From IMG/VR virus record IMGVR_UViG_3300008262_000226, positions 62,001 to 126,000 of that record: 64,000 bases of DNA; one strand, 5' to 3'. The DNA comes from a virus. The position numbers and the translations under genes are program-made. Positions 36,316-60,670 of the stretch are shown one piece after another; the stretch's first letter is position 1; every line of letters starts with the position of its first letter. Under the pieces are notes generated by a model, which searched no databases, was not told the origin of the DNA, and saw nothing but the letters and a program-made list of their open reading frames with translations.

Positions 36316-36316
36316 C

Positions 36317-36345: not shown

Positions 36346-36359
36346 ACTGTCATCATCAC

Positions 36360-36443: not shown

Positions 36444-36445
36444 TT

Positions 36446-36470: not shown

Positions 36471-36475
36471 ATGTT

Positions 36476-37270: not shown

Positions 37271-37290
37271 CTCCGTGTGAAGGAAGTGAT

Positions 37291-37315
37291 ACCTGAGGTT
37301 CGCCTCAGGTTTTTT
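37291..37315 (+). terminator. intrinsic terminator of the tRNA-cpeT island
   Basis: Stem ACCTGAGG/CCTCAGGT with a TTCG tetraloop and six T's. It ends the island 20 bases after tRNA-Thr. Confidence 0.9.
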
Positions 37316-37317
37316 CT

Positions 37318-37325
37318 TATAAATA
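37318..37325 (+). promoter_or_regulatory. T4-type late promoter of the giant fibre gene
   Basis: An exact TATAAATA three bases after the terminator's T run. The likely ATG at 37364 is 38 bases further. The terminator and late box together switch from the early island to the late fibre operon. Confidence 0.8.
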
Positions 37326-37363
37326 ACTCAGAAGAAATCTCCATACTACGGGTTACTGAGAAG

Positions 37364-41100: not shown

Positions 41101-44100
41101 GGATTACTAGGAGAAGAAACACAATCGATTGCTGCATTTAATAAAGCTCGTGATTTGATGAAATCGGCAATCACAAATCAATTAACGGTAAAAGATTTAA
41201 CTGTTACTGTAGATCCTATTACTGGTTCTAATACAAATGTAAATTCTTGTTCTAATGTTCAACTTGCAATTACTAACTTAAGCGCAATTGTTACAAATGC
41301 TATTGGTGCTGGTAGTATTTCTGGTTTACCACCTGAAAATGTAGGAACTGTTCCTGCTGGAGAAACAAAATGCAAGAGAGATATTGGCATGTTTATTGAT
41401 GCTATTTCTCTTGATATTGTTCAGGGAGGTGGTAATGTTTATGCGCGTAAATTCATTCAACAGTATTTTAATCAGGCAGGAACTGCTTGGATAACTGGCG
41501 GATTACAAGGTGAAGAAGCTCAGTCTGTAACTGCATTTAACAAAGCAAGAGATATAATGAAACTTGCTGTAGCAAACCAGTTATATGTAAAAGATCTTTC
41601 TATTACTGCTGATCCTGCTCCTGGTTCTAATTATGGAACTTCTGGATCTAATACTGATAATAATTTAAATCCTGCTCTATGTTCAGATGTTCAAAATGCA
41701 ATTACAACTTTAACTTCTATTGTTACTGCTAGAGTAACTGCTGGAAATCTTACTGGATTACCTGCAGAAACACAAGCAACCATTCCAAATGGAGAAGCTA
41801 AGTGTAAGCGCGACATTGGTTATATTGTAGATTCTATTGCCCAAGATTTATTCTGGGGTGGAAATGAATTTACTGTTGGTGCAGTAAGAGAATATTTTAC
41901 TCTAGCAGGTGTTCCTATTTCTAATGGATTAGTTAATGAAGAGAGTCAAACAGTAGTTGCTTTTAATGCTGCAAAAGATGTTGTTAAAAAAGCAGTTACA
42001 AATCAACTTTATTCTAAAAATTTAAATCTTTCTTATGGTCCAGCAAATGCTGGTGGATCGGGTGGAAATGTAACATACAATGCATCTGGTAATGGTGCTA
42101 CTTGCGTAGATGTTCAGACCACAGTAGAAAACTTATTTGCAATTGCTACTAGTGTTGTAGCGTCTGGAACTTTAGCAAATCTTCCTCCAGTAACTAATGG
42201 ATCTTACGATTGTGCTAATGTTAGAAATAGTATAGATACATTAACTGCAATTTTAACAACTGCGTTAGCATCAGGAAATCTATCTTCTTTACCTGAAGAG
42301 AATCCAGGATCATGGAGCACAGTTAGTGAGAGTAGTAAGTGTAAGCGTGATATTGGATATATTGTAGAGGCAGTTACTTCTGATCTACGTTTGGGTGGAA
42401 ATGAAAATACTATCAACGCAGCAGAAGCATACTATACAGCTGTTCCTCTCAACACTGACACTGTAGACGGAAGACAAGATGGATTTACTCTAGATTATAT
42501 TGAAAATGAGAGACCAGAAACTCTAGATGCATACAACTATGTAAGAAATTTGGCTATCTCAGCAATGAGAAACCACAATACTTATATCAATAATGCTTCC
42601 ACTACTTTAAATTCTCCAATCGTTACAGTTCCAAGCACAATTGGTCTTGCTATTGGAATGCGTGTTAGAAGTGTCAATGCTATTCCAACAGGTCCTTCTG
42701 ATACAGTATCATTTACTTCTACTATTCCAGATACAGCATACATCAAAAAAATTGGTGATGGTCAAAATGGATTGGCATCGAATCAAATAGAATTAGGAAG
42801 ACTAGGAAGCAGATTTGATGATGGAGAAACTGTAAGTGCTCAGGGAACATCGTCTACTGTAAAATTATACGTTGAATTAAATCAAGGATCTTGGGCAACA
42901 ACAATTGCTCCTTCAACCGATAGCGCAGTTATTCAAGATTATAATTACACGGCTGCTGGCGATCCTTCAACTGGATCTCCAGGAGGAGAGTGCGCTACTG
43001 TTGCTAATTCAATTGTTAATTATTTCAATATTATTTCAACAATTATCAACAATGGTGTTGGTGTTGTTCCTAGAGTTGCTTCTTCTCTTAACACAGCATC
43101 CCTCGCTCAAAGAGGATCTCTATTCACTTTAACTGAATATGATAGCAATGGAAATCCAACATCAAACCCCCACCAGTTAGAAACTGGAACTCCAGTAAGA
43201 CTTGTTCCATCTCCTAGACCAGGAACTAATCCAGACAAGAGACTGGTTAGACTTCCAAAAGGATTTGATACAAATACTATTTACTATGTAATTGCTCCTG
43301 GCAGAAGAACAGATCCTTTTGATTATTCTAATTCTATCGGATTTAATGGCGCAAATCAGCAAACATTGATGCTTGCTACTAGTGAAGAGAATGCTGCCGC
43401 AGGTATTTACATTTATTCTTCCGAGACTGATAGTGTAGATCCAGATGTAAATATTGATGTTTATCAGTATGTTCTAGATCTTAAGTATGATCTACATCAA
43501 TATGAAACTAAAATTGCTAATAATAGCAGCACCGAATTTGAAACCACTAGACCACATATTTTTGACAAACCAGCTGATGGAGTTGAACCTCAGTTAGTGT
43601 TCTTTAGAGTTGGAAGTGATATTATTGGATCATCGTTGCCTACTCTATCTTCTAATTTTGGTGGAACTGTTATTTCAGAAAAGCAACAGTATTATGTTCG
43701 TTATGTAAGTTCCAGAAGATTTACGATTCACCAAACATTTACTGATGCTAGAGATAATATTAATCCTGTAACTTTCCAACCAGGAAGCACCGCAGTATTC
43801 TACGCATTTGCTAGCAAGAGAAGATCTCCTCTCAAATATGATCCTGTTGTAGGTGGTGCAAATGATGGTTGCTGGTATTTAAACACCTTAACTGCAGGAA
43901 ATGAAATTGTTCCTAGATTGAAGTTTAGTGATTATGCAGGAAGAATCAGAACAACTGATACTTACTTTGAACGTATTGAAGATAATAGAACGGAAGATGA
44001 TCGTGTATATAGATTCCGTTATGTAATTCCTAAGAATCTTAAAACCGTTCGTGATCCTCTACGTGGATTTGTGTTTAAGATTAGAACAGATGAAAAGAGA

Positions 44101-47100
44101 AGATTGCTCCCCCAGAAAATATTACTGAAACCAACTGCATCTGGTTCTTCACTTGCCACAATTAATGCTCCTGTCACTGGTGAAAGACTAGGTTTAACTG
44201 TATCTGAACTATACAGTCAAACTGGTAAAGATTCTACTTACGATCCAGGTCCTCAGGGTAATCCTAAGAGAATCGAAACAGATTCTAAGATTTCTTTCAC
44301 AGTTCAATCTGCCAGAAAGAGAACTATTCAAAATAGAGATTATTTAGAATTAACTGTATTTGATATTGGTGTAGATGCCGAAGCATATAAGACTAAACTC
44401 TTCACAACGGTTAAAATTTCTGCTCCTGAGGGTGGAGATGGATCCTTTATTGAAAGTATTCCAAATTCTAATAACACAAATAAAATTACTTGGGATGGTA
44501 ATAGCAAGGGAACTGCATATGTTCACGCATATTTTTCTTATGAAAACGATTACTACATGATTCTTAAGGATCTCACTGGTAATTCTGAAATTAAGTATGA
44601 TAGTAATACAGTTACTACCTTTACTCAAGGATCTGTAACTGCTACTTTACTTGATCAACCAAATGGCGGAAGATCTGACATTTCTAATTTCCTTTATGTT
44701 GTGGAAGGAGCAAACGTTTACACTATGACTCCTGGCGACACTTTAAATGATGATCAAGGAGTGTCGTATACAATTGCTGAAGTAGAAGATTCTTCTGAAC
44801 TTGAAAGCACTTTCTACATTTTTGATATTGATACTATCCGTAGAAGAATTGCTGGTCAACAAGATGGTGTGTATTATCTCACATGTTTACGTGGAGATAT
44901 TAGACCTTTCCCAACTGGTTCTGGTGTTGGTGAAAACTTCAGAAACTTCAGATTCTCTCAACCAGTATCTAAGTTATATCCAGAATTCTATAAGAACGAC
45001 CCAGAATGGTATAAGGGAATAAGTGCAGCAACTGCCACGTTACTTGATCCACCACCAACAATTTCTGCGGCAGACAACTATATCCATGGTTTAGTTACGG
45101 TTAATGATTCCAAAGGATCTGTAACTAGAGAAACCGTTCTTGATTTTGTTGCTGATCCTGGAACAGGAAATTATACATATTCTGGAAATAATACAATTCA
45201 AGCTCAACCAGGATCAGCTTCTGCTGGATCTGAAGGCAGATTGATTCCTATTTCTGGCGATTCTCCATATCCAACAGAAGGAAAACTTTATATAGAACTT
45301 CGTAGACCATCTATTGCGCGTTCTGGCAACCATACCTTTGAATACCTTGGTTTCGGTCCTGGTAACTACTCAACTGGTTTCCCTGCGCGTCAGGAAGTGG
45401 TCTTAACTGATGTTCAAGACTTCTATGCTCAAGCTAAGCGTGAAGACGCTGGTATCGTCTTCTACACGGGTCTGAACTCCAATGGTGACCTCTACATTGG
45501 TAATCGCAAGATCAATGCTATTACTGGTGAAGAAACATTCCTAGAAAGAGCGGCATTAGTTGAATCTGAGGATGAAGGAGATAGTATTGGCAATCTTGTA
45601 ACTACTTTTGATACTCCAGTTACATTTAATCAAATCATCACAATTAATGGTGGTGATGGATCTGATGAAAGTTTCTTCAATTCTCCAGTTGTAATTAATA
45701 ATGCAACTTCTTTCGGAACGGTAGAAAATTATCCTTCACTTAAGATTGTTACTGGAGAAGGAACTCCTGTTGGATTTGATCAGTATTTAGAATATAATAC
45801 TGTTGGTCAAAGAACAGGTGATATCGTCATTCATCAAAACAGAATTACTGCAGCTGTATTTGATTTCAATCCAAGAGGAACACAAGATTATACTATTAGA
45901 ACTTCCATATCAAATATCACTCCAGATTTTAACAATACATTTGGGCAAACTACAGGATTTACTTCTCAAATTTTAGCAACTAATTTTGGAACTAGAGATC
46001 CGTTGAAGTCAGGTGATATGCTATTGAAGGGAGATCAAACTTCCTTTACTGGATCGTTAGGTTGGATATATGCTAATGATTACATTGCTATAACTAACAG
46101 ATCTGATGGTCAAACAACACCTCAAGTTGTAGGTATTCAGGGTAATGCTACTGGAACATTTGCTAGAATTAACTGGAATACTGGTATTAATAATGGTTCT
46201 CTAAGTATTAATAGTTCTACTCAAATTAGAATTACTAATGCTACTGGAACATTAGCAGTTACAAATGGTGTTTGGAATATTGTTCCAGGAAGTTTTAACG
46301 CTTCTAACAATTATATTGATGTTATTCTGAACTCTAATCTTTCTGTGTATCCAGTTAATCTTAATAATGGTAAAGGATACCCAGTTGATCAAGTAGCACA
46401 ACCAAATATTGCAATCGCTCGTTCGTCTTCTCAATTTAAGGAGTGGGGTGTTCTAGGTGCAGAAGCAATTAGAACAGAAACTTCTTCGATTGGAAATTAC
46501 AAGTTAGGTATTAATACCGTTGCTCGTTCTCCACATTCTGCATATCTGACAGCATTTGTTTCTCCAGAAACAACGCCAAGAGCAAATCTTGATGTTGTCG
46601 GTAATGCATTTATCAGTGGTAAGGCAATTAATTCTTATTTAACTGAGCAAACATCTACGAAGACAGAAACTAATTTAGACAATGCTTTGGTTGTTGGTGG
46701 CAATAGTTTGAGTCTAAATGGTCCTGCTACATTCCGTGTTCAGACAACGAATAATGGTAGAGTAGGAATTAATACTTCTCTAGTTGATGTCGTAAATCCA
46801 TCCAACGTTCTTGATAGAAATTTTGTAGTTGTAGGTAATGCTAGAATTACTTCAGATTTTGAATTAACAGGTGACCTTCAAGTTAATGGTGGTGATTTAA
46901 CTACAACTTCTCCATCTTTCAATTTATTAAATACTTCTTCTCCAGACATTTTAAACTTTGCTGGTGGTGCAGAAATATTTAATATTGGTCACACGACAAC
47001 TGGAGCTCAAACAATTAATGTCGGCAATGCTGCTTCATCTAGTTATATTCAAGTTGGTAACGTTGCTACAGAATCTGTTTTCAGAATTCATAGAAATTCA

Positions 47101-49380
47101 TTAAACGCAATTGTTGATATTGCTTCCGTTGCTGATACTGTTGGTAATAGTTGTGAAGTTCAAATTGGCGGAGCATGGAACAATACTGCTAGCTTCACTG
47201 AAATACGCACCAGACAAACATTAATTGCTGGAGAATTAGAATTTGGAACTAGGTATGCTTCTGGAACTAGTCAGTCTAGAATTTTCACTCAGACTAGAGT
47301 TCTGAATGCATTTGATGGTGATCAAACCAATACAGTTAATCTTGCTACTAATGCAACTACCTTCAACCTCGGATCTCTTGGTGGTAATACTACCATTAGA
47401 AATACTCTTAATGTTCTTGCAAGTGAAAACGTTAATGGTAATATTAGACTGAATGGTGGATTAAATGCAGGTATTGTTGAAATTGTAAGAGGAAGATTCT
47501 CTACAACACCAGTCGCACACAACGTAGGAAATCTCGCAAACACCAACATTGATTATTATCAGTATAATACAACTGGTAGAATAATTGATACTCAAGGTGT
47601 TGCACAATGGGGAGGAACTTCGTTCTTGGTTGCTGGTGGTCAAATTGCTGGTATTGATACTATTACAAATACTGGCGGAACAAATAGAAATCCTGGAACA
47701 TATAGTTTCATTCCAGCAACAGGTGGAACTGGAACGGGTGCTACATTTACTATTAGCATTGCTAACGATAAAACTCTTAATATTGATATTGTTAGCCCTG
47801 GATCTGGATATACTGATAATGACCTATTAATAATTACTGCTGCACAAATTGGTGGTGGAACTGGTGCTGGCAATCTTACATTCCAAGTAAATGGTGTAAA
47901 TGCTGGTGGATCTAGCTATTATCTACCAATTTCTACTCCTGGTGTGTTTGATTTCAGAGTTGGTGATCTTATTCTCATAGATCGTGGTGATGCAGCAACA
48001 CCAGATAGTGTTGTTGTTTCTGGTGGTGGAAGCATTACTGGATTAAGAAATCAAGCAAACAGTGAGATTGTTCGTGTTACTGGATTAACAAACTTAAGTA
48101 ATCCAAATGATCCAGAAGGTTTCCGAGTTCAAGTTATTCGTGGTCAGGAAGGAACACAGGTAAGAACAGATCACCCACAAGGTTGTGTGCTTGCTAAATT
48201 AATTAAACAAACAAATGCAAGTTATATTACAGGATCTGATCTTAATAATGATGGAGTTTTAGATACACCTGTGACGGGTATTTCAAATTCCTCTGTCAAT
48301 GTTAATATTGGTGTTGCTGAATTTGGTGGAGTTCTTACTACCAGAGACTTCTTGAGATTATCTGGTTCAGAAATCGTTGGTATTGCTAGAACGGTATCCA
48401 CTGATATTCAAGTTCTTGAAGTTAACGATGGATCTTTAACACCCGCTACAGTATTCAAAGTAGAATCTACTACTGGTAATACAATTATTGGTGGTAATCT
48501 TGGGGTTGGAACTGGATTTAATAAATTTACAGTTACTGGATCATCTGGAAACACTAATATTGCTGGAACATTAACAACAGAGAACACATTAACTATTAAT
48601 GGATCTACTATTCCTAATACTCAATTCTTTACTATTACTAACGGTGGTGCTACAGGAACTCCATTGAGAACTACATTCCAGATTGATACTGCGAATGGTA
48701 ATGTTAGAATGAATGGTGGAAACATCAACATCTATGGAACTGATGGAACAACACCTAGACTAACGTTTGTCAATTCTTCGGGTGACTTTACCACATATGG
48801 TTCTTTCTCTGCTCTTGGAACGGGTGCTAGCACTTTTGGTGGTGATATTGTTGCTGCAGGTGATTTAACAATTAATGGTGGTGATATCACTGTTAATTCT
48901 GGAGGTAATCCTATTTTTGAGGTAAATAGTAATGGTTCTATGCGTATTGCTGGAATCAATAATTACTTTACTCAAACGGGTGGTAGAAGATGGGAGTATG
49001 CCGATGGATTTGTCATTAATGCTTTGGCAAACGTTAATTATTTTGTTAATGCTACACAAAATACGCTATTTAAACTTCCTCAAAATGCTCTAATTGGTGA
49101 TATGATTCGTATTATAGATATTGGTGGAAACTTAAATTATAATTTAAGTTTGATTGTAAGAGCTCCTGACAACGTAAAAGTTCAGAACGCATCTGATAAT
49201 ACTGCAAGAAATATTGCTTCTGGTATTCCAGTTTCTGATTTTGTTGGATATAATGGTGGTGAAATGGTTGTTCAAACTCCATACGCTGCATTTGCACTAG
49301 TTTTTGCAGGATCTACAACTCCAGATGGCAACACTGCTGTTCCATCATCTATCGCTGGTTGGTATTTAATCGAAGTCTAA
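38134..49380 (+). pseudogene. C-terminal part of the same giant fibre protein
   Basis: 3748 codons open without a start of its own; the first ATG is at 38362 and no ribosome site precedes it. The region just before that ATG is coding in style and continues the upstream fragment. Four copies of R-Y-K-D-A-x-x-L-I-x-x-N-R-Q-E-I-I-D (about 40000-40960) and five copies of K-C-K-R-D-I-G-Y-I-V-D-A-I (about 40111-42400) form the centre. The C-terminal third has short beta repeats (I-N-V-G-N-type) like the fibre at 4111. It is probably a long virion fibre. Whether it is expressed depends on the frameshift. Confidence 0.75.
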
Positions 49381-49381
49381 T

Positions 49382-50611
49382 ATGTTTTACCAAGAAGTAA
49401 AATCCGCAAGGGCAGCTGCAATAGGCACCATCATGCCCTGGACAGGACCAATTAGTGACGTTCCTAAGGGATGGGTATTCTGTAATGGTCAAACTGTTAC
49501 AGCAAGTGAGTATCCATTATTAGTTCAGGCAATAGGTGATACCTATAATGCAGGAACTTCAGATCTTGGTGGGTCTTTTCCTAATTATAGTGGAAGTATA
49601 GTTCTTCCTAGTTTAAATGGAAAAGCATTGATGGATTTGGAAGAATCATATTTTGCTAGTAGAGCAAGTGGTGGCACTGGAAGAGCAGCGGATACAAATA
49701 CAGAGGCAAGAACTATTATTTCTCCGTATATTGGAACTAACTCTGATAATTCTATTCCAGTTATTTTTAATGATGTCTATACTGATGTTATTTTTACATT
49801 AAATGATAGAAGTGGATATGGTGGTAGGATCAGAGGATCTAGTATTCAAAGAGGTGAGGCTTCTAGAACAGTTTATATTGCTCCAAGAAAATTAGGTAGA
49901 AATCATCTTAGGGGTCATAGACATTCTGGTAGTTACGACACCATATCTAGAACTCCAGATTCATCTCCTGGTGATGGGGTAATTCCTTGGGATAATATGG
50001 AATTCAAATTTGGTCTTGGTATTCAAGACGTTGAACCAGGACCTCAGGGTGATGTTTATGGTTTGAACTTTCAAATGACGAGAGGTGATACGTGGTCGGA
50101 TATAGAAAGCAGAAGTGGTTTTGGTAGTGGTCAGGCAGGAAGAACTGTTGCTGCTGTTTGGTCTGAAAATCCTCCCATAAACTTATTTCCTCAATCTGTT
50201 CGTAGAACTCCTATTTCTGGTGCATTGCAAGATGCAAGATTAACTTCTGGCAGAACTGTTTCTTATGGTATAGGTGGAGGAACTGTTACTGTTCCTAGTG
50301 GGTATACAAATTATTATGCTGATCTTGGAACATCTACAAATTATGGAACATTAAATAGTCATCCAGCATATGATTTCAATCAAAACTCAGGAGCAATTGG
50401 ATTTAATCCAGTTATAGAACCACATAATCATGACGAAATAGATGTAACTTTTGATACTGGAAATCTTAGACCACAAAGTTCTTTGACGGCTAGTGCAAAC
50501 ATACCAGTAACTACTACATTAGATAATACTCAAAATAGATCGGTATTGCAAGTTAATTTTAATACTTCGCAACCAGGATTAAATTGCATTTATATCATCA
50601 GAGCATACTAG
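49382..50611 (+). CDS. tail collar domain fibre protein
   Basis: 409 residues. The N terminus I-G-T-I-M-P-W-T-G-P-I-S-D-V-P-K-G-W-V-F-C-N-G-Q and later L-P-S-L-N-G-K are the phage tail collar domain (PF07484), which attaches or forms fibre parts. The body is Gly/Ser/Thr-rich. It ends with I-I-R-A-Y, as does the 974-residue gene (I-I-K-A-Y). It starts one base after the giant gene stop. Confidence 0.8.
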   Translation: MFYQEVKSARAAAIGTIMPWTGPISDVPKGWVFCNGQTVTASEYPLLVQAIGDTYNAGTSDLGGSFPNYSGSIVLPSLNGKALMDLEESYFASRASGGTGRAADTNTEARTIISPYIGTNSDNSIPVIFNDVYTDVIFTLNDRSGYGGRIRGSSIQRGEASRTVYIAPRKLGRNHLRGHRHSGSYDTISRTPDSSPGDGVIPWDNMEFKFGLGIQDVEPGPQGDVYGLNFQMTRGDTWSDIESRSGFGSGQAGRTVAAVWSENPPINLFPQSVRRTPISGALQDARLTSGRTVSYGIGGGTVTVPSGYTNYYADLGTSTNYGTLNSHPAYDFNQNSGAIGFNPVIEPHNHDEIDVTFDTGNLRPQSSLTASANIPVTTTLDNTQNRSVLQVNFNTSQPGLNCIYIIRAY

Positions 50612-50620
50612 GATAAAAAA

Positions 50621-51532
50621 ATGGCAGTTAGATACGCTAATTACGCAAGAGAAAAATCTAGATTTGGTGGGTATTGTGGTGCTATTATTATGCATTCAAC
50701 TCCTGGAGTTGGAGTTAACAATGACCCTACTTCTGCAGTATTTAAAAATAATTTACCAGCTGGTTATTTAAAATGTGATGGCACGGTAAAGAGTGTTAGA
50801 GATTTTTATGCTTTGGCTCAAATTCTTGGTGTTGGTGACGATTGTAGATTTAAAAAAGATGGAACTCAATTAAGAAATGCTGATCCCACGACAGGAGATT
50901 TGGGTCAATTTCAACTTCCAGATTTAGGATCTAAAGTTATTCTCCCAAACAGATCAACAGGAACATACGTTAATGATAGAGTAGAAACGGATGGTGGAAC
51001 AACATCCACAAATATTGTTAATAGAGTGGGACCTCAAATTGAGGTCGCTAGTAATGTGGGAAATCGTATAGAAGTAAATTATTCTGGAAATCTACAAGTA
51101 ACTGCTGCAAGTGGAATTAATTTTAGTGGAAATGCAAAATACAATATGGTAAGCACTTTATCCACTACAACATTAGGAATTGAAAATTTCCAAGGTCATG
51201 CTCACAATTCATCGCAAAGTTATTTAAATTTTTCTGCTACCCATAGAGTTGGATCAACAGGTGGTAAAGATGGTGGTAACTTAAGTGGAAATAGTGGATC
51301 TGGTAATGTGTTTGGAGAAACTCAGACAAATACTTCATCTCCATCAACACATAGTCATGGTATAATACGACCAACAACATATAATCCTAATCCATTTACT
51401 TATTCTTATTCTCAATTTAACGCTCCACTAGATAATGTAGTTTCATATGTTGATATTGATATTCAAAATCAAGATAAATTAGATCAGGTTGTAACTCCTT
51501 TTATTCTAATTGAATATTTAATTAAGTTCTAA
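50621..51532 (+). CDS. tail collar-like fibre protein
   Basis: 303 residues. G-A-I-I-M-H-S-T-P near the start and L-P-A-G-Y-L-K-C-D-G-T, then F-Q-L-P-D-L-G-S-K-V-I-L-P, again give the tail collar layout. The centre is rich in Ser, Asn and Gly with H-A-H-N and S-H-G motifs common in such domains. It overlaps the next gene by one base. Probably a short fibre. Confidence 0.75.
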   Translation: MAVRYANYAREKSRFGGYCGAIIMHSTPGVGVNNDPTSAVFKNNLPAGYLKCDGTVKSVRDFYALAQILGVGDDCRFKKDGTQLRNADPTTGDLGQFQLPDLGSKVILPNRSTGTYVNDRVETDGGTTSTNIVNRVGPQIEVASNVGNRIEVNYSGNLQVTAASGINFSGNAKYNMVSTLSTTTLGIENFQGHAHNSSQSYLNFSATHRVGSTGGKDGGNLSGNSGSGNVFGETQTNTSSPSTHSHGIIRPTTYNPNPFTYSYSQFNAPLDNVVSYVDIDIQNQDKLDQVVTPFILIEYLIKF

Positions 51533-53241
51533 TGCCACAGTTAGCATCTATCACCAACACTCAAAATTATACTATACCACAAGATGTTTATAGTATGCGT
51601 ATACGCATCTATGGAGCAGGAGGTGGTGGAGAATTTATTAATAATAATGTTGCACTAACATCCACTGCTGGAACTTCTGGTGGATCTTCGTCTTTTCTTG
51701 GATTAATTGCTGGTGGGGGAACTGGGGGTGGAATTGGTGGTAAAAATTCTGGTGGAAATGGGGGAGGAACTTCATTTACTTACAATTGGTCTAATTTAGG
51801 AGCTACTATTTCTACAGTTTCTGGTTCTAGTGGTGGAATTAGCACAGGTGGAACTGGTGGAAATATTGCGGGGGTTACAAAAAATGGAGGAAACGGTACA
51901 CCAGGGCAAGTTAGCTATACATCTAATGTATATCATGAATTTAATAATGAGACTAATGTTACTCTTTTTACTAGCAATAGCCCTGATTTGACAGTTTCAA
52001 TTAATAACACTGGATCTCCTGACGGAACTCCATGTGGATTACCTCCTAGTGGAAAAAATTATGGAGTTTATTTTAATGTTCCTTTTGTTGATTCTAGTTA
52101 TAGTGTAAGTGTATTTGGAGTATGTCAGCAAGCAGCTGCGGGTGGAACAGCTGGTGCTCCATATTCTTTGGATGGAATTGGTGCTAAAAGTGCAAATGGA
52201 TTTCAAATATGGTTTACTACGGGAGCTTGTAAAAATACTTACATTAGATGTTTTAGTTTTACTGCTACAGGATTGAAGGTAGGAGCGCGTGGGAGAGGAG
52301 GTGGTGGTGGTGGAGCCCTAGAAACTACTCTTACTAGAGAAATGTTATTGGGATCTGGGGGGACATATTCACCAGGAACTACGCATACTGCTACAGTTGG
52401 GGGTGGTGGATCTAGAGGAGGGAATACTGCATTTGATGGTGCAAGTGGGTTGATTGATTTATATCTTTTGATTATTCCTAGGATTAGTTTAAGTGCTACT
52501 AGAACACAAATTGCAGTTGGGGAATCTACTACATTAAATTGGTCAACCACTGGCGATGCTAGTAGTATTTCTTGGTCATCTGGAGGATTAACGAATGGAA
52601 ATTTAGCTAGTAGCGCAACAGTTTCGCCAACAGTTACTACTACATATACTGCTACCGCGAGTGGATTGGGTGGAACTTCCCCACCAGCAAGTGTTACTAT
52701 AGTAGTTTATCAGAGACCTACGGCTTCAATTACAGTTCCTTCTACTTTATTGTATGGTCAACAGGGAACAATTAGTTACGATACAAATTACGCTAATACT
52801 AGTATCACAATAACGCCAACATATAGTTATGATAATGGCACTGTAACTGGAACCGTAGTTAATATCACTCCAGCTGCTTCTGCTGAAAATGGCTCAGCAG
52901 GAACTCAAGTTGCTGGTAGTTTCACATCATCAATACCCTACAATAATTATGGACCTAGAACAGTTCAATATACTTTAAATGCAGTTGGATCTGGTGGTAA
53001 TACTACAGCACCTGTTACTAATACTACAATTATTATTGACGAAACTCCAGAAAATGTTAATATTCCTGAAACGGAAGATGCGTTTAAAAACCAAGATCCA
53101 GTTTTCTCTCCTGATTATGATGTTACTTCGAGTTATTTGCAAGTATTAGATATTGATATTCCAGTAGAAATTAAAGCTAGTGCCCCAATTAAAGTAGATA
53201 AAAATTTACAAGAAAACTGGCAGGATGTAAGGAGATTATAA
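51532..53241 (+). CDS. glycine-rich, Ig-like adhesin (paralogue A)
   Basis: 569 residues. The N-terminal 320 residues are very rich in Gly with G-G-G-G and G-G-N runs. Next is an Ig-like domain with V-G-E-S-T-T-L-N-W-S-T-T-G-D-A-S, then a beta domain (L-Y-G-Q-Q-G-T-I-S-Y). The C-terminal 65 residues start at E-T-P-E-N-V-N-I-P-E-T and end in W-Q-D-V-R-R-L. This tail is shared with the next two genes. The layout suits a virion adhesin with a common attachment tail and a variable head. Confidence 0.7.
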   Translation: MPQLASITNTQNYTIPQDVYSMRIRIYGAGGGGEFINNNVALTSTAGTSGGSSSFLGLIAGGGTGGGIGGKNSGGNGGGTSFTYNWSNLGATISTVSGSSGGISTGGTGGNIAGVTKNGGNGTPGQVSYTSNVYHEFNNETNVTLFTSNSPDLTVSINNTGSPDGTPCGLPPSGKNYGVYFNVPFVDSSYSVSVFGVCQQAAAGGTAGAPYSLDGIGAKSANGFQIWFTTGACKNTYIRCFSFTATGLKVGARGRGGGGGGALETTLTREMLLGSGGTYSPGTTHTATVGGGGSRGGNTAFDGASGLIDLYLLIIPRISLSATRTQIAVGESTTLNWSTTGDASSISWSSGGLTNGNLASSATVSPTVTTTYTATASGLGGTSPPASVTIVVYQRPTASITVPSTLLYGQQGTISYDTNYANTSITITPTYSYDNGTVTGTVVNITPAASAENGSAGTQVAGSFTSSIPYNNYGPRTVQYTLNAVGSGGNTTAPVTNTTIIIDETPENVNIPETEDAFKNQDPVFSPDYDVTSSYLQVLDIDIPVEIKASAPIKVDKNLQENWQDVRRL

Positions 53242-53242
53242 A

Positions 53243-54415
53243 ATGCCAATATATTCAACTAGTAGAGATGTAGGGTGGAATGCATGTACTCAAGGGCAAA
53301 ATATTGCGTGGTCTTGGAGTGTGCAGAATAGCACTAGTTCTGATAGTTTTATATTTAATCCTGTTGCTATCGCTTTTACTTTAGATGGTCCTTCTAGACC
53401 AAATGCTCCATCTGTAAGTATTTCTGTAAACCCTTCTTCTATTATTAATAATGGATCATCTTCAGCAACATTATCTTGGTCTGCTTCTGGAAACGTAAGT
53501 AGTGTTAGTGTTACTGATGTAAGTAGCCCTGGAACATCAGGAAGCAGAACTGTTCAGCCAACCTCTACTAGAACATATACTATCACTGCAAGCGGTGAAG
53601 GTGGAACAAGTAATGCAAGTACAACTCTTACTGTATATCAACCACCAAATCTTACGTTATCTTTAGACAGATCTTCTATTGCCGCAGGAGAATCTACTAC
53701 ACTTAGATGGTCAACTACTGGAGACGCAAGCACAATTACATGGACTTCTGGTGGTATTACTAATGGCAACTTGAATAGTTTTACTACAGTTTCACCAACA
53801 CAATCACAAACTTATTCTGCAACTGTTTCTGGATTAGGTGGTAGTGATAGTGATAGTATTAGATTAACAGTATATCAAAGACCAACAGTTTCATTGACTG
53901 TTCCAACTACATTAAATTATGGTCAACAGGGTATTATAAGTTATGAGAGTTGTTATAGCAATACATCATTAACAATTACTCCATCTTACAGTTACTCTAA
54001 TTCTTCTGGATCATCAACTGTAACTGGTGATGCTATTGCTCTACCCACACCAAATTCTGCTGAAGAAGGTGTTGGAATAAATTGTGTTAGTGGAACGTTA
54101 AATACTACTATACCTTACACTAGTTCTGGTCCTAGAACAGTTACTTACTCTTTAGCTGCAGTAGGTTCTGGCGGCGATCGAACAATTACTAATAGTGTAA
54201 CAATTAATATCGATGAAACTCCAGAAAATATTAATGTTCCTGAAACAGATGAGTTATATAAACAACAAGAACCAATTTATACACCAAACTACACAATAAC
54301 ATCAAATTATTTAGAAATTGCTGATATTGATATCCCCGTGGAGATAAAATCTAATTTTCCGATTAAAGTGGATAGAAATAGACAAGACAACTGGCAAGAT
54401 TTAAGACAAATATAA
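53243..54415 (+). CDS. Ig-like adhesin without glycine-rich head (paralogue B)
   Basis: 390 residues. It has two Ig-like domains (S-A-T-L-S-W-S-A-S-G and A-A-G-E-S-T-T-L-R-W-S-T-T-G), then the same beta domain (N-Y-G-Q-Q-G-I-I-S-Y) and the shared tail (E-T-P-E-N-I-N-V-P-E-T to W-Q-D-L-R-Q-I). The N-terminal head (about 100 residues) differs from the paralogues. A 99-base stretch is identical to one in the next gene. Starts one base after the upstream stop. Confidence 0.7.
   Translation: MPIYSTSRDVGWNACTQGQNIAWSWSVQNSTSSDSFIFNPVAIAFTLDGPSRPNAPSVSISVNPSSIINNGSSSATLSWSASGNVSSVSVTDVSSPGTSGSRTVQPTSTRTYTITASGEGGTSNASTTLTVYQPPNLTLSLDRSSIAAGESTTLRWSTTGDASTITWTSGGITNGNLNSFTTVSPTQSQTYSATVSGLGGSDSDSIRLTVYQRPTVSLTVPTTLNYGQQGIISYESCYSNTSLTITPSYSYSNSSGSSTVTGDAIALPTPNSAEEGVGINCVSGTLNTTIPYTSSGPRTVTYSLAAVGSGGDRTITNSVTINIDETPENINVPETDELYKQQEPIYTPNYTITSNYLEIADIDIPVEIKSNFPIKVDRNRQDNWQDLRQI
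53681..53779 (+). repeat. 99-base direct repeat, first copy
   Basis: These 99 bases, coding for part of an Ig-like domain, are identical to 55413-55511. A second shared block of roughly 67 bases occurs shortly after each copy. Flanking sequence is more diverged. Confidence 0.85.
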
Positions 54416-54416
54416 G

Positions 54417-56141
54417 ATGGCAACATACACAACAAATCAAACCGTAACAATACCAGCAAACGCAGCAAATGTTAGAGTTCAAGTTGCTGGAGCTCGCGGT
54501 GGTAATGGTGGAAATGACGGAAATCCTGGAGGAACTGGTGGTAATGGTAGAAGAGGAACTTTTTATCTATCCGATTTTACTGCTAGAACATTAACATTAA
54601 ATATTGGTCAATCTGGTGGTAACGGATTTGGGTGTGTTTCTAATAGTGGATCTGGTGGTGGAGGATCTGGAGTTGCTAGTGGTGGTAATGGTGGTCTTAC
54701 TGGTCCTCAAGGATGCTCTGGTGGTGGTGGCGGCGGCGGCGGTGCTACTGGAGTATATGATTCTGTTGCTAGTGGTTGGATAATTGTCGCGGCTGGGGGT
54801 GGCGGAGCGGGTGGAGCTAGTTATCCTGATAGTTTTTTACGTGGTGGTGATGGTGGTTTTGGATTGGGTTTCCTTACTGGTGATGTAAATAGCATATCTA
54901 GAGGTGGTAATGGATCATCGCAAGGATTTGATGGGGGAGGTGGAGGTGGTGGTGGTGGTGGATGCCCAGGAGGCGGCGGTGGTAGAGAAGGAGCTGATGA
55001 TAGAGCAGGTAGATATCCATCTGGAGGTGGTAGTGGAGGTGCCAGTTCATATAATTCTAGTTATGCTACTTTGAGTGGATCTGGCGATACTCATAATGGA
55101 AGTGGTTATGTAGATATTACTTACGATTTAATTAGCCCTAGTGCCACTAGTTTTACTGCTACTCCTTCTTCAATTATACGAGGTCAATCTACTAGATTGG
55201 AGTGGACTACAACTAATACAGTTAGTGCATCAATTAATAATGGCGTTGGTAATGTAACGGTTCCTAATAGTTTTGTTGATGTGTATCCCACTCAAACTAC
55301 AACATATGTTCTTAATTTAGTTGGATATGGTAATGCAACTGGATCTGCTCAAGTTACGATTACTGTATATCAACCACCTATTTTAACTTTCACATTAGAT
55401 AGAAATCCAATAGCCGCAGGAGAATCTACTACACTTAGATGGTCAACTACTGGAGACGCAAGCACAATTACATGGACTTCTGGTGGTATTACTAATGGCA
55501 ACTTGAATAGTAATGCCATAGTTTCTCCTTCAGAAAGCACAACATATTCAGCAGTTGTTTCTGGATTGGGTGGTAGTGATAGTGATAGTATTAGATTAAC
55601 AGTATATCAAAGACCAACAGTTTCATTGACTGTTCCTGCAAGTATAAATTATGGTCAACAAGGAACAATATCTTATAGTAGTTCATATTCTAATACGAGT
55701 TTAATATTGCAACCTGTTTATACTTACGGAAGAGGAGTTGGAACAATTAACGGAACTGCAATAACTTTAACAAAACCAACTTCTGCTGAAAGTGGTGTTG
55801 GTATAACTACTGTTAATGGAACAATAACAACAGAAATACCATATAATACTACTGGTCCTTTTTCTGTTTCTTATACTCTTACTGGTGTTGGTGGTGGTGG
55901 AGAAGCTTCCACTACTTCAGAAATACAAATTATAGTGGATGAAACACCCGAAAATATTAATCTACCAGAAACTGAAAATGTTTATAAATTGCAAGAACCA
56001 ATTAATACACCAGATTATACTGTAACATCAAATTATCTTGCAGTTGATGGTGTTGACATTCCAGTTGAAGTAAGATCAAATAGACCTATTAAGGTAGATA
56101 GAAATCAGCAACAGGATTGGCAAGATATAAGACAACTATAA
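54417..56141 (+). CDS. glycine-rich, Ig-like adhesin (paralogue C)
   Basis: 574 residues. The first 240 residues are strongly glycine-rich, with runs of up to nine Gly (G-G-G-G-G-G-G-G-G-C-P). Such runs could form a polyglycine II bundle like the tip protein gp38 of T-even phages. Two Ig-like segments follow, then the Y-G-Q-Q-G-T-I-S-Y beta domain, and the shared tail E-T-P-E-N-I-N-L-P-E-T to W-Q-D-I-R-Q-L. A receptor-binding role is inferred. The stop overlaps a late box. Confidence 0.7.
   Translation: MATYTTNQTVTIPANAANVRVQVAGARGGNGGNDGNPGGTGGNGRRGTFYLSDFTARTLTLNIGQSGGNGFGCVSNSGSGGGGSGVASGGNGGLTGPQGCSGGGGGGGGATGVYDSVASGWIIVAAGGGGAGGASYPDSFLRGGDGGFGLGFLTGDVNSISRGGNGSSQGFDGGGGGGGGGGCPGGGGGREGADDRAGRYPSGGGSGGASSYNSSYATLSGSGDTHNGSGYVDITYDLISPSATSFTATPSSIIRGQSTRLEWTTTNTVSASINNGVGNVTVPNSFVDVYPTQTTTYVLNLVGYGNATGSAQVTITVYQPPILTFTLDRNPIAAGESTTLRWSTTGDASTITWTSGGITNGNLNSNAIVSPSESTTYSAVVSGLGGSDSDSIRLTVYQRPTVSLTVPASINYGQQGTISYSSSYSNTSLILQPVYTYGRGVGTINGTAITLTKPTSAESGVGITTVNGTITTEIPYNTTGPFSVSYTLTGVGGGGEASTTSEIQIIVDETPENINLPETENVYKLQEPINTPDYTVTSNYLAVDGVDIPVEVRSNRPIKVDRNQQQDWQDIRQL
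55413..55511 (+). repeat. 99-base direct repeat, second copy
   Basis: Identical to 53681-53779 over 99 bases, in the matching domain of the neighbouring paralogue. The identity at silent sites implies recent duplication or gene conversion. Confidence 0.85.
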
Positions 56142-56175: not shown

Positions 56176-59100
56176 ATGCCATATCAATATTCTACAACAC
56201 CGCTATACGTTGCTGAGGGTGATATTCTTCAGTTTAGATATCAAGCACCTCCTTTTTGGGATTATACCGAAACAATTACTATTCAGATTGGTGGATTAAC
56301 AACATACTGGTATGTTACTACAGTTCCAGAAGATTTTAGACCAGATCCTTTTCCTTTAAATGAAGTTAATGATGCTTTGTTGGATACATATTATTATTTT
56401 GATCCAGTAGTATTCCAAGCAACAACTGGCAATTCAAATACTGTAACTGGATTAACTCCAACAACACAAGCTTCTGTTAGTTTGACTTCTAATTTTATCG
56501 GAACCGTTACTGATTATTCTTTGAGAATAAATGATGGAGCATGGTTTATTCCAGGATCTTCGACAACTGTTCAAAATGGAGATAAAATTGCTTTACGATT
56601 AAAATCTGGTGCTGGGAACCAAGAACTTAGAGAATTAGTTCTTGGTATTGGAACTGGGTATGAAACGTGGAGAGTAACTACTATAGCTATACCAAGAAAT
56701 GAACCTATTCCATTTCCAAATTTTACAGATCTTACTGCTCAGTCATTAAACAAAGTAATTTATAGTAATGTTCTTCGTATTCAGGGATTGTTGAGACCAG
56801 CTGCTGTTCAAGTAGATAACGGCGCTTCATTTGCAATATCTAGCACAAATACAACAACTACAAATGCAGATGGATTTGATGTATTAGATGGAGTAACGTT
56901 TGGAACTACAGGAACAATTTCAAACGGTCAATATTTGCAACTTAGAATGACCAGCCCAAGCACAGAGTTTACTTCTAAAACTACTGTTTTGGGGATTGGT
57001 GATATCACTAGTGGTTCTGATTGGGTTATCACAACAGGTCAAAGCTTATCAACTACTCCAACTAGTTTTACATTTCCTGATATTAGTGGAGCAATTGAAA
57101 ATTTCCTTCAACCATCTGCTGCTAGACCTGTTGGGGGAATAACTGGATTGGGAACTGGAATTAGTGTTCCTGTGGAATTAGTTTCAACTACTGCTTCTGA
57201 GGTTAAAGTTAAAATTAATAATTCTTCGATTGGTGTATTTCCTGCTACCGTTTCAAACGGAGACACAATAACTTTATATGCTAGATCTTCTTCTACTTTT
57301 GGGGCAAGTGTTGAGGTTAATGTGAAAGTTGGTGGAACTACGATTCCTACATGGAGAGTTCAAACAAATACAGGACCAGACACAACAGCAGATTTTACTC
57401 CACCAACAAATAAAACAAACCAAGTTCCAGGAACTTATGTATCTAGTTCGGTAGTTAGCATTACTGGAATTAATAGGTCAATAACAATTAGTGCTACAAA
57501 TAATGCATTAATTTCAATCGATTATGATACTGCAGTTGCTGGACCCAGAACATTTGATCCTACTGTAAATACTTCATTTTATTTGGTGTTACAATCTTCT
57601 TCTTCATTAAATACTACTGTTTCTACGAGTGTGACAGTAGGAACAGGAACTACAAATAATCCATTTACGTGGTCAGTTGGAACTTATGCAGTTGCACCTC
57701 CAGCACCTAGTTACGTTGGATCTTGGTATAGCAAAAAGAATGAGAAAGTAATTAGAAATGGATCAGGAACAATCACTTCTATCCAGAAAACAAAATATGA
57801 TGGATATTCAGTGGGAACTATTTTACCAATCTTGAAAGAAAGCACAGCTGCTGGTTATGGAACTTTAACCGCTGGAAGTCTTACTGCTAGATTCCCAGGA
57901 TATTTACTTTGTGATGGATCTTCGTATAATGTAGCAGATTATCCAGTATTGTGGGAAGTAATTGGTAATACATATGGTGGAACTGGATCATATAATACTA
58001 CAACAAAAGCATATAGTGGAACATTCAATGTTCCTGATTATAGAAATGTTAGAATGTGTGGAACTGGATTGATAGATGGTAACAAAGGATCTTCGGCATT
58101 CTTGCCAGTTGATGGTGGTAGTGTCTTTAGTGTTGGATCAACGGGGGGATTTTGGTTTGTTGATAGTGTTGGTGTTGCTGGTCCTCTTCCATACGAACAA
58201 GTCGAAGCATCTTCAAACACTGCTACTACAGGAACTACCAGCCCATTCTTTACTTTGGGAACAGTAAAAACTACTGGTGCTAACTTAGTTACAGCAGAAG
58301 TAAGTTTTACTACAATAGGAACTATTACTGCTCAGGTCGGACCAGTTTCTAGTGTCACTACTTCTGCTCCTTCGCATAGTCATACATATCTCAGTGCTGT
58401 GGTTGATGGTGATAGAGGAGATCCACTAATTCCTTGGGGAGCTAGAGCATTATTTGGAACTACTGCTGGTCCCATTGATACTGGAAATGATTACGCGGGA
58501 GAATTTCCAGATGAATCTGAAGCAACCAATGCTCCTGGTGTTTGGCGACAGTTCCTCACTGGAAGATTTCCAAATTTGGCAGCTGAATTGACTGCTGCTG
58601 GAACTTCTATTGGTGAATTGACAGGTCAGTTGACACGAGAAGGTGACACAAGAATTCAATACGAAAATCTATGGCCCAGTAATCTCACTGGATTAGATAC
58701 AAGCAAATTAATTACTCTGAATACTACTGGAAATCGTGAAGTTGCTGGTGTTATTGATACAAATGCGACGACTTTTAGAATAGATGATTTTGTTTCTACA
58801 TCTGGTTCGACGGAAACACACTCTCATTATATTACAACATCCATAGTTACCAATCCATTAACTGATTATTCTTATGGAAATTCTTCTGGTTCTGGAACCA
58901 AGAATGGTTTGGGTGATGCTGCAAATACTTTAAGTATTTCTTTCAATGCATCTGAAACAGGAATAGGCGTTAATGAAGGAACTTTTACAATGAATTCTAC
59001 CATAAAAAATCCAGTTCCAGAAGTTGCTTTATCTCCAAATAGAACAGTTCCTATTTTAGCACCATTCCACAAAGTTAGATATATAATTAAAGCATACTGA
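56176..59100 (+). CDS. large fibre protein with tail collar domain
   Basis: 974 residues. The first 540 residues hold several repeats of a beta domain with T-W-R-V-x-T and N-G-D-x-I-x-L-x patterns. Near residues 545-630 is a tail collar domain (G-T-I-L-P-I-L-K, then F-P-G-Y-L-L-C-D-G-S-S and F-N-V-P-D-Y-R-N-V). The C-terminal 300 residues contain S-H-S-H-T and end in R-Y-I-I-K-A-Y. Probably a distal fibre. It stands between the adhesins and the oxygenases. Confidence 0.75.
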   Translation: MPYQYSTTPLYVAEGDILQFRYQAPPFWDYTETITIQIGGLTTYWYVTTVPEDFRPDPFPLNEVNDALLDTYYYFDPVVFQATTGNSNTVTGLTPTTQASVSLTSNFIGTVTDYSLRINDGAWFIPGSSTTVQNGDKIALRLKSGAGNQELRELVLGIGTGYETWRVTTIAIPRNEPIPFPNFTDLTAQSLNKVIYSNVLRIQGLLRPAAVQVDNGASFAISSTNTTTTNADGFDVLDGVTFGTTGTISNGQYLQLRMTSPSTEFTSKTTVLGIGDITSGSDWVITTGQSLSTTPTSFTFPDISGAIENFLQPSAARPVGGITGLGTGISVPVELVSTTASEVKVKINNSSIGVFPATVSNGDTITLYARSSSTFGASVEVNVKVGGTTIPTWRVQTNTGPDTTADFTPPTNKTNQVPGTYVSSSVVSITGINRSITISATNNALISIDYDTAVAGPRTFDPTVNTSFYLVLQSSSSLNTTVSTSVTVGTGTTNNPFTWSVGTYAVAPPAPSYVGSWYSKKNEKVIRNGSGTITSIQKTKYDGYSVGTILPILKESTAAGYGTLTAGSLTARFPGYLLCDGSSYNVADYPVLWEVIGNTYGGTGSYNTTTKAYSGTFNVPDYRNVRMCGTGLIDGNKGSSAFLPVDGGSVFSVGSTGGFWFVDSVGVAGPLPYEQVEASSNTATTGTTSPFFTLGTVKTTGANLVTAEVSFTTIGTITAQVGPVSSVTTSAPSHSHTYLSAVVDGDRGDPLIPWGARALFGTTAGPIDTGNDYAGEFPDESEATNAPGVWRQFLTGRFPNLAAELTAAGTSIGELTGQLTREGDTRIQYENLWPSNLTGLDTSKLITLNTTGNREVAGVIDTNATTFRIDDFVSTSGSTETHSHYITTSIVTNPLTDYSYGNSSGSGTKNGLGDAANTLSISFNASETGIGVNEGTFTMNSTIKNPVPEVALSPNRTVPILAPFHKVRYIIKAY

Positions 59101-59107
59101 TTAATTT

Positions 59108-59767
59108 ATGACAATACAACCATATAGACCACTTGAGTTGATGCGAAATGATGCATTTACTAAATCTTCCTTTGATGATTTCATTGGAGTGTGGGAAGAT
59201 TTTGTTCCGACATCATTTTGTGAAGAACTTATTCAGTATTTCGAAGATACGAGATCTTTGAATAGTAGTATTGCTCCAGGTGATTTGGAATCTGACTATC
59301 AAGAATTTGTTAGAGGTGAAGATCAGTATCAAGGAGCATTACATAGGAAAGATGTTTCTATGTTATTGAACTACCATCAACAAGAATTGTCTTATAAAGT
59401 GCATCAATTTTTAACATCTTGTGTATTGCATTACATTGTTGAGTATGATCAACTTAGGAAAGTTCCTATGTTTTCCACTGATATAAAATTTCAAAAAACT
59501 TCCCCTGGCGGCGGGTATCATTTATGGCACTATGAAAATTCTGCAGCATCACATGCTCAGAGAGAATTAACATGGATGATTTATTTAAATGATATTCCAG
59601 ATGGAGAAGGAGAGACAGAATTTTTATATCAAAGAAGAAGAATTAAACCAAAGCAAGGAACTGTTGTTATATGGCCTGCTGGTATGACTCATGTTCATAA
59701 AGGAAATACAGTTCTAACAACAGATAAATACATATTAACAGGATGGTATATTAAATCAGGAAAATAA
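59108..59767 (+). CDS. 2OG-Fe(II) oxygenase A
   Basis: 219 residues. The iron site is His141-x-Glu143 (W-H-Y-E-N, Glu in place of the usual Asp) and His195 (M-T-H-V-H-K-G-N), with Lys207 as a possible 2-oxoglutarate anchor (D-K-Y-I-L-T-G-W). E-T-E-F-L-Y-Q before it is typical of prolyl-4-hydroxylase relatives. The substrate is unknown. It lies directly after a fibre gene, and the proline- and lysine-bearing structural proteins nearby are possible targets. The other two oxygenases here are only distantly like it. Confidence 0.85.
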   Translation: MTIQPYRPLELMRNDAFTKSSFDDFIGVWEDFVPTSFCEELIQYFEDTRSLNSSIAPGDLESDYQEFVRGEDQYQGALHRKDVSMLLNYHQQELSYKVHQFLTSCVLHYIVEYDQLRKVPMFSTDIKFQKTSPGGGYHLWHYENSAASHAQRELTWMIYLNDIPDGEGETEFLYQRRRIKPKQGTVVIWPAGMTHVHKGNTVLTTDKYILTGWYIKSGK

Positions 59768-59770
59768 ATC

Positions 59771-60670
59771 ATGCCATATCAACCAATTTTTAGAACAGCT
59801 ATAGTTGAGGCTGATTTCTTAAATAAAATTCTGATTACAACACCAACATTTGTTGAGGCGGGAGAAAAGATTCCTCTCAATAGAGTAAATATATCAGAAG
59901 AAATTTGTGAAAGATTTTTAAATGAACAAGTAGATTCATATTGGCACTCTGAAAAAGATAAATTAGAATATTTTGTTGCATATAATGATGGAACTTACTA
60001 TTGTCAAAGAAAAAGAGTAAGGTATGATTTCGAAACAAAAACAAATTATTGGTCAACATATAATTTTAATGGAGCCTCTAAAGATCAAATAGAAGCATTA
60101 ACAAATAAAATTCTTGATCTTACCGCTGCTCTTAGGGAATATAAAATTGCTGAGTATGAGGGTGTTCTTGAAAAGATTGATCAAGAGTTTATTTTCTTTG
60201 ATCAAAGATGGTTGAAGAAATTCAGAGAAAAACAAATGATGTTATCTGCTTCTGATTGGAGAGTTCTTCCTGATGTTGAGGATTCATATCCAGGCGAAAA
60301 GGATATGTGGATAAAGTGGCGTTCTACGATGAGATCGGAGACTGTAAAGAAACCTCAGGAATTTGAAACGAATTTAGAATTTTTAAAATATTTGTATGAC
60401 CATAAGTGGCCAATAGATCCAAAAAGATATAAAGAAAAATATCCAGATTCTGATGTTGAATACCTTTCTACTGAAGATCAATGGGTTAGTTATGATAGTG
60501 AAGCATCTACTGATTTTGTTGATTCTAGACTTGTCAATATTCTCAGTTCCAGTGGTGTTTATAGAGAAAAAATTGTTGATATTAAACGATCTGTATTCGA
60601 ACTTATTAAAGATCTTAGACTGGAAGACTTCACAGAAATTAATTACGATCAATATAATATTATAGAATGA
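59771..60670 (+). CDS. tail-assembly-chaperone-like protein
   Basis: 299 residues. The segment A-S-D-W-R-V-L-P-D-V-E-D near residue 160, with W-I-K-W-R-S-T-M-R and then W-P-I-D-P, resembles the phage tail-assembly chaperone pattern (x-S-D-W-x-x-x-P-D, W-x-x-Y-R, W-P). The N-terminal half is charged and helical with a Tyr-rich middle. In other phages such domains help fold or join fibres. Its place among fibre and oxygenase genes fits. It overlaps the next gene by four bases. Confidence 0.6.
   Translation: MPYQPIFRTAIVEADFLNKILITTPTFVEAGEKIPLNRVNISEEICERFLNEQVDSYWHSEKDKLEYFVAYNDGTYYCQRKRVRYDFETKTNYWSTYNFNGASKDQIEALTNKILDLTAALREYKIAEYEGVLEKIDQEFIFFDQRWLKKFREKQMMLSASDWRVLPDVEDSYPGEKDMWIKWRSTMRSETVKKPQEFETNLEFLKYLYDHKWPIDPKRYKEKYPDSDVEYLSTEDQWVSYDSEASTDFVDSRLVNILSSSGVYREKIVDIKRSVFELIKDLRLEDFTEINYDQYNIIE

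Follow-up and report, generated by a model that had tools for sequence, protein, structure and literature searches.

A putative adhesin cassette in the tail-fibre region of Kyanoviridae, with a common C-terminal tail and unlike N-terminal heads

The stretch of 64,000 nucleotides (nt) analysed here (hereafter, the window), which covers positions 62,001 to 126,000 of the IMG/VR virus record IMGVR_UViG_3300008262_000226 (126,473 bases), includes three consecutive open reading frames (ORFs), called A, B and C, which lie on the plus strand at a spacing of 1 nt. Their products carry N-terminal regions (heads) that vary, immunoglobulin (Ig)-like domains, a beta domain with the motif YGQQG, and a common C-terminal tail of 67 residues. 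Given the distribution of this tail in related phages, these genes probably represent an optional and expandable adhesin cassette of the Kyanoviridae, the T4-like cyanophages, in which the N-terminal heads would bind hosts and the C-terminal tail would dock each unit on one site of the virion.

The initial annotation of this region described a tail of 65 residues as nearly the same in the three genes, and a common tail of 67 residues was indeed found, although identity to the tail of B is 60% for A and 69% for C, which is less than the wording implied. The proposal of common YGQQG beta and Ig-like domains is borne out by a likeness that spans approximately 250–350 residues, well beyond the 65: in BLASTP, B and C are 58.5% identical over 352 amino acids (aa; E 1e-136), A and B 52% over 317 aa (E 1e-104), and A and C 36% over 612 aa (E 1e-105), and B and C are 74.5% identical over 791 nt at the DNA level. 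Judging by these alignments, in which the likeness is far above chance, A, B and C are pairwise paralogues. The heads are variable, as had been noted. The head of A is not independent of that of C, having the same kind of glycine-rich start, to which an insert is added, and the head of B is truncated in this record.

A single-sequence tblastn search with the tail of B against 50,697 phage records returned 147 places in 49 records, i.e., 48 named cyanophages and one Kyanoviridae single-cell record. At the sensitivity used, the tail is not widespread among unrelated proteins; the initial annotation had named such a wide spread as an observation that would tell against its proposal. A profile of the tail, applied to the window, to 30 earlier loci and to the best 80 of 309 IMG/VR relatives, with near-duplicates included, identified 263 tails in 104 loci, the vast majority of which (228) end no more than 3 residues from the end of the ORF, with three others ending 4–20 residues from it.

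The order of the genes in this region, that is, gp12-like gene, collar gene, tail-bearing genes, short tail fibre (STF) gene, 2OG oxygenase and chaperone, is common to the window, Syn1, S-PM2, S-CAM3 and ACG-2014e, the four named phages all being Kyanoviridae. In the 56 complete cassettes with both borders, which include near-duplicate contigs, the tails are spread over one to six ORFs, with three tails in 40 cassettes, two in 8, one in 4, five in 2, four in 1 and six in 1, and no tail was found outside the slot between the collar and fibre genes in the stretches fetched for these cassettes. A heterotrimer stoichiometry, as might be read from the three tails of 40 of the 56 cassettes, was rejected because cassettes with 1, 2, 4, 5 and 6 tails also occur.

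Empty slots were sought through the collar gene in the best 80 of at least 397 IMG/VR relatives and in six named phages, which gave 86 loci; the 66 with the STF gene in view were used, and the other 20 were left out. No tail was detected in 50 of the 66. The collar and STF genes abut in 45 of the 50, with a gap of -60 to +17 nt, and other genes lie between them in five (L125, L157, L165, L176 and L197). The gap is 3.2–6.8 kb in the 16 loci counted with tails, of which L126 was included only by a weak partial match within the STF gene, and the gap of L177 is lengthened by a split in its STF gene. In L125, L157, L165 and L176, the slot was observed to hold one to three paralogous genes ending in TIG/Ig-like repeats that are related to the N-terminal region of the STF; the cassettes of this kind in Sf-CH1b, L157, L165 and L176 end in these repeats instead of the tail family.

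A second type of C-terminal tail (type II) is found in three genes each of L126 (Sf-FR1) and L197, and a row of three or four genes with this tail in common was noticed in L126, L182 and L197. The direct comparison of the type II profile with that of the first type (type I) returned nothing. On the other hand, both profiles find L200, L203 and L195, on residues that overlap, and these loci thus bridge the two, for which reason the type II tails are treated as distant members of the family. Given the 45 empty sites, the other fillings and the second tail type, the slot is best described as optional, with a content that varies by lineage.

The comparison of close phages agrees with the proposal of the initial annotation that one tail is combined with variable heads, given that the rest of the gene changes and the tail is kept. 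Between the S-RIM44 isolates Np_42_0711 (L048) and Sn_08_0709 (L131), the left flank (7,758 nt) shows 97.7% identity and the right flank (12,258 nt) 98.8%, and the first tail-bearing genes are 85% identical. The middle genes encode 486 versus 884 aa, with high identity returning 42 nt before the middle tail, which is 95% identical (205 of 216 nt). Immediately upstream, the ungapped stretch has 140 identical positions of 258, and the stalk of the middle gene is thus a diverged relative and not an unrelated sequence. The middle head of L048 belongs to the PA14-like group described below, and Syn1, with flanks 98–99% identical to those of L048, has a middle gene of 884 aa with a glycine-rich head plus insert.

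A different kind of change is seen between S-CAM4 (L043) and ACG-2014j (L044), in which the flanks are 92–98% identical and the likeness at that level ends directly behind the start codon of the second gene, which encodes 582 aa with one tail in the former versus 1861 aa with two tails in the latter, the tail that adjoins the right flank being visibly diverged. A plain head swap was rejected here, given that residues 731–1303 of the 1861-aa protein, its middle part, are 58% identical to the 582-aa protein; the alignment points rather to the gain and fusion of units. In a scan for breakpoints among 264 units at 90% identity, the end of high identity was in view in 19 pairs, of which four reflect a gap of the window's own and nine a single set of related contigs at -1125. 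The remaining breakpoints are found at -1232, -343, -42 (two), -2 and +72 nt from the start of the tail and are not, therefore, restricted to this position. In L094 (L094:3-4226), one protein has two tails whose DNA is 90% identical from a point 2 nt ahead of the tail start onward, which may represent a duplication or conversion at the tail boundary.

The tails track the genome in which they are found. In a set of 17 genomes picked as distinct, with 54 units, the nearest relative was in the same genome in 42 of 54 tails; in the three regions that precede the tail, taken toward the head, this held for 12, 11 and 3 of 54, in comparison with a mean of 2.4–2.5 and a maximum of 11–13 under label permutations. 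In a larger set of 43 genomes, which was dereplicated only at 90% tail identity, the equivalent values were 56/125 for the tails and 18/125, 15/125 and 0/124 for the upstream regions. The identity of fourfold-degenerate sites within and between genomes, respectively, was 0.524 and 0.428 in the tails, 0.484 and 0.437 in the beta domain, 0.472 and 0.440 in Ig1, and 0.395 and 0.416 in Ig0. When protein identity was matched, the tails still gave 0.513 within genomes versus 0.432 between them (60–70%) and 0.588 versus 0.513 (70–80%), an excess that is found above 60% in the tails and in most bins in beta and Ig1. This raised identity at fourfold sites points to recombination between the tandem genes, and a common docking constraint on the tails would be compatible with the same pattern.

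Single-linkage grouping of 125 heads (45 loci) by their first 150 residues yielded 34 glycine-rich heads (C-type), 30 of the B-type, 29 glycine-rich heads with an insert (A-type), 22 heads with a motif of the metal-ion-dependent adhesion site (MIDAS) kind, three DUF5648 heads, a group of two and five singles. The order of these groups along the cassette varies. When whole heads are clustered, 124 of the 125 fall in one cluster, because these still include Ig-like parts. The predicted model of the C head (residues 1–238) was aligned by VIA-align with 7nx0_C at a Z of 16.5, with a root-mean-square deviation of 3.3, 188 aligned residues and 27% identity, and with 12 entries of ALK/LTK glycine-rich domains at a Z of 13.2–16.5, in comparison with 11.4 for the best Ig row and 11.0, over 147 aligned residues, for the Bxb1 tail-tip chain 9d93_Qa. 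No PDB chain was matched by the first 231 residues of C in phmmer at E<=0.1, and what the model indicates is a likeness of fold to ALK/LTK, not membership of the family.

The PA14-like (B-type) group is heterogeneous under single linkage, including a DUF4114-like head and others, with weak matches to PA14 in seven of the 18 members at E<=1 (best 0.012) and to GLEYA in four of the 18 (best 0.033), and its head profile matched no PDB chain at E<=1. Among viral structures, the B model, predicted from the B of locus L001, is matched best by an S-RIM44 protein named PA14 domain-containing, and its PDB matches lie mostly over the Ig-like domains, which are generic. In the third head type, found in the relatives, the D, S, G, S and M of DxSGSM are invariant in 18 of 18 members; the DxSGS resembles the MIDAS motif of von Willebrand factor A (vWA) domains. 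No Pfam family was matched by any of the 18 at E<=1, and there was no vWA chain among the nine PDB sequences found at E<=1.

In the mechanism proposed here, each unit starts at the N terminus with a variable head (glycine-rich and ALK-like, weakly PA14/GLEYA-like, with the MIDAS motif, or of another kind), continues with a stalk of two or three Ig-like/beta domains, and closes with the 67-residue tail. The heads would bind glycans or proteins of the cyanobacterial surface, as suggested by the ALK-like model of the C head, by the weak resemblance to PA14 and by the position among fibre genes, and the docking of the tail on the virion is suggested by its conservation across different heads. The tail, without a confident fold alone, would fold on docking at one common site in the tail/baseplate fibre apparatus encoded around the cassette. 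Confidence in the tail is low in both AlphaFold models (10-residue means of 37–64 and 47–63), and no claim on its fold is made for this reason. Within a genome, the tails would be homogenised while the heads change, come and go, because, as we propose, every unit of a phage must fit one site and the tandem tails recombine.

We also infer a location on the virion and a partner in the N-terminal region of the STF. The N-terminal 530 aa of the STF (at 80% coverage) and the tail are found in the same 49 phage records, by a comparison of accessions made by eye in which many of the records repeat a species, as further isolates or as duplicate entries. Among the IMG/VR loci and the six named phages, the region is present in 16 of 16 loci counted with tails versus 16 of 50 tail-less ones (Fisher p 7e-7, with no correction for kinship or duplicates); the tail-bearing loci include L126, with its weak partial match and its type II tail. 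The approximately 530 N-terminal residues of the STF are thus a candidate docking partner. A more specific version of the proposal, in which one lineage-specific C-terminal docking tail serves unlike heads that are swapped, gained, lost and fused at a fixed slot, giving each phage several host-binding folds docked on the N-terminal Ig-like region of the STF, is put forward tentatively, and is more doubtful than the host-binding and docking cassette in general.

A number of observations weigh against an adhesin cassette with a common docking tail. Genomes without the cassette exist, and 32 of the 263 tails end more than 20 residues from the end of the ORF, two of these being in ORFs cut by the end of the contig; such internal tails are followed mostly by a Gly/Pro/Ala-rich stretch and another unit, as in the single 1555-aa frame of L105, with three tails. 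Given these, the tail works as a domain with no need of a free C terminus. The beta and Ig1 regions also keep some genome signal (12 and 11 of 54 versus approximately 2.5 when permuted), and the clustering of the tails may be due partly or wholly to recombination, with no need for a docking constraint. Among the heads, InlK_D3 and PKD each match 3 of the 18 B-type members at a lower E than PA14, and no PA14 match was found in full-length B or in the 486-aa S-RIM44 gene. All three cassette genes of S-PM2 and Syn1 are labelled "virion structural protein" in RefSeq, but the original records gave this label only to the middle gene of the three: of the T4-GC clusters 737–739, 1047 and 1048, which stand at the cassette position in these phages, GC738 and GC1047 (the middle genes) were virion structural, and GC737, GC739 and GC1048 hypothetical. 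Finally, the evolution study of S-PM2d, in its main text, names mutated ORFs that include 218, 219, 220 and 224, which lie on either side of the cassette in the deposited numbering, and none of the cassette ORFs 221–223, so that this part of the source does not favour a leading role for the cassette in host adaptation (PMC9910659).

The genome signal of the tails also has a neutral explanation, in which the tandem 3' ends are homogenised by concerted evolution through gene conversion, the tail is an end domain (for oligomerisation, for example) that has no common docking site, and the heads arise by ordinary divergence and recombination. The fourfold-site identity raised within genomes, even at equal protein identity, a trend that beta and Ig1 also show, fits such a process, as does the tail pair of L094, in which a DNA identity of 90% begins 2 nt ahead of the tail. 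It accounts less readily for head groups that differ widely, or for a tail 95% identical where the rest of the S-RIM44 middle gene differs, and is considered improbable on balance. A capsid decoration of the type of T4 Hoc, which has Ig-like domains at its N terminus and a capsid-binding part at its C terminus, is likewise judged unlikely. Here, the tail would bind the capsid, with the Ig-like stalk and the head projecting from the phage head and aiding loose attachment, and the order of the parts is that of Hoc, the PHROGs category of the families is "head and packaging", and "outer capsid protein" records are among the viral structural matches. Nevertheless, these matches of the B model are mainly via generic Ig-like domains, every tail in the 56 complete cassettes is enclosed by tail-collar and short-tail-fibre genes, and the cassette adjoins the tail-assembly chaperone in the annotated phages.

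This adjacency would itself permit the tail to be a recognition site for the neighbouring tail-assembly chaperone, rather than a structural anchor, given the chaperone-like gene downstream (phrog_4697), whose closest homologues are in tail-bearing records. A chaperone is also present, however, in S-H9-1, ACG-2014h and S-RSM4, in which no tail gene was found in the slot, and the existence of internal tails also speaks against such an address. Recognition by the chaperone was rejected as the principal explanation on account of its occurrence in phages with no tail found in the slot, and is regarded as very improbable. The adhesin cassette with a C-terminal docking tail is the preferred reading, and the features of the cassette are listed, with their neighbours, in the table below.

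Coordinates of the cassette and its neighbouring genes in the window (all on the plus strand)
Feature	Position	Strand	Description
ORF A	51532..53241	+	569 aa: glycine-rich head with long insert (~residues 1-310), Ig-like and YGQQG beta domains, tail
ORF B	53243..54415	+	390 aa: remnant of weakly PA14/GLEYA-like head; Ig-like and YGQQG beta domains; tail
ORF C	54417..56141	+	574 aa: glycine-rich head, predicted to fold like ALK/LTK; Ig-like and YGQQG beta domains; tail
Head of C (residues 1-238), similar to ALK/LTK glycine-rich (TG) domains	54417..55130	+	fold match
Tail of A, 67 aa	53038..53238	+	
Tail of B, 67 aa	54212..54412	+	
Tail of C, 67 aa	55938..56138	+	
gp12-like short tail fibre gene	49382..50611	+	phrog_4591, E 8.1e-157
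Tail collar gene	50621..51532	+	left border of cassette slot; phrog_4714, E 2.6e-122
STF gene	56176..59100	+	right border of cassette slot; phrog_4924, Pfam Collar
2OG-Fe(II) oxygenase	59108..59767	+	phrog_61, E 1.4e-58
Tail assembly chaperone-like gene	59771..60670	+	phrog_4697, E 5.5e-96; relatives without tails have one too

The IMG/VR contig 3300008108_000011 (192,732 bases) is near-identical to the record of the window over the compared stretch. Two near-identical records, G001 and G002, have a B of 469 aa; relative to these, 237 nt (79 codons, in frame) are absent from the window at the junction 53288/53289, leaving B with the 390 aa listed above. The junction pattern was found in none of the IMG/VR contigs searched and the intact pattern in two, a search from which the window's own record was possibly excluded. 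The window also lacks 90 nt of G001 at 15402, in frame, which reduces an open frame from 282 to 252 codons, and has approximately 121 nt fewer than G001 at 38133, which are not in frame and split the giant tail-fibre gene (37220-49380) into frames of 304 and 3750 aa, versus a single frame of 4093 aa in G001; G002, in turn, lacks four other stretches that the window has. Given the other gaps in the same record, one of them out of frame, and those in G002, the interpretation of B as a strain-specific deletion of the head is not preferred, and we lean to assembly gaps, although real deletions may be involved, as two of the three gaps of the window are in frame.

Elsewhere in the window, five tandem tRNA genes are found at its start (24-395) and three others (Met, Leu and Thr) just before the giant fibre gene (36243-37271), and a 907-aa protein in the tail gene cluster (22468-25191) has an endolysin/peptidase-like region at residues ~530-655.

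The initial annotation knew of no described system of this form. The genes themselves are known, given that these are found in PHROGs and in the T4-GC clusters. A belongs to phrog_9770 (E 8.7e-162, profile positions 1-590 of 590) and B and C to phrog_2155 (E 2e-114 and 5.9e-168, respectively) as well as phrog_29022, and the label of these families is "virion structural protein". In a literature search that covered mostly sources outside subscription, in part, no paper was recognised as describing the organisation of the cassette. By the literature searched, the gene families are already known, and the optional, expandable, multi-unit cassette with C-terminal tails and unlike heads appears to be new.

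The host-range proteins of the T4-like cyanophages are not settled, according to the available part of one study, in which g12, g34 and g37 are among the T4 genes absent from some cyanomyoviruses and structural proteins of unknown function may stand in for the missing tail-fibre proteins (PMC2984593). The virions of S-SM1 are described, in the portion of the source at hand, as containing 41 proteins (PMC3037559). If the heads do bind hosts, the head type would be a genomic marker to set against host range, and the S-RIM44 pairs, which have like flanks and different middle genes, would allow a direct test. The cassette would then provide a phage adhesin anchored at the opposite end from the receptor-binding proteins (RBPs) that have N-terminal anchors.

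Among the known systems, T4 Hoc resembles the cassette units in its N-terminal Ig-like domains and in the attachment of its C-terminal part to the virion, but it is a single gene, it is found on the capsid, and no sequence link to the units was seen beyond the generic Ig-like structural matches. The records of PHROG 9770, 2155 and 29022 and of T4-GC 737–739, 1047 and 1048 give neither a function nor a cassette organisation. The C head recalls gp24, the tail fibre of the myocyanophage Pam3, and S16 gp38 in its TNF-like/glycine-rich architecture, which is located at the host-recognition end in Pam3; the TNF-like and glycine-rich domains of gp24, in the passages available, recognise the host receptor and resemble ALK 7LIR (PMC9608196). 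According to the same passages, gp24 docks by an N-terminal helical domain, with the glycine-rich domain being distal (PMC9608196), whereas the cassette units have the glycine-rich domain at the N terminus, followed by Ig-like domains and a C-terminal tail, and occur as one to six paralogous units, with other heads as well. The RBPs of the Klebsiella phages, as far as the consulted sections of the source describe them, also combine a conserved structural module for attachment with a specificity module that is exchanged, but their attachment module is N-terminal (PMC8262889), whereas the conserved end of the cassette units is C-terminal and the variable end is N-terminal.

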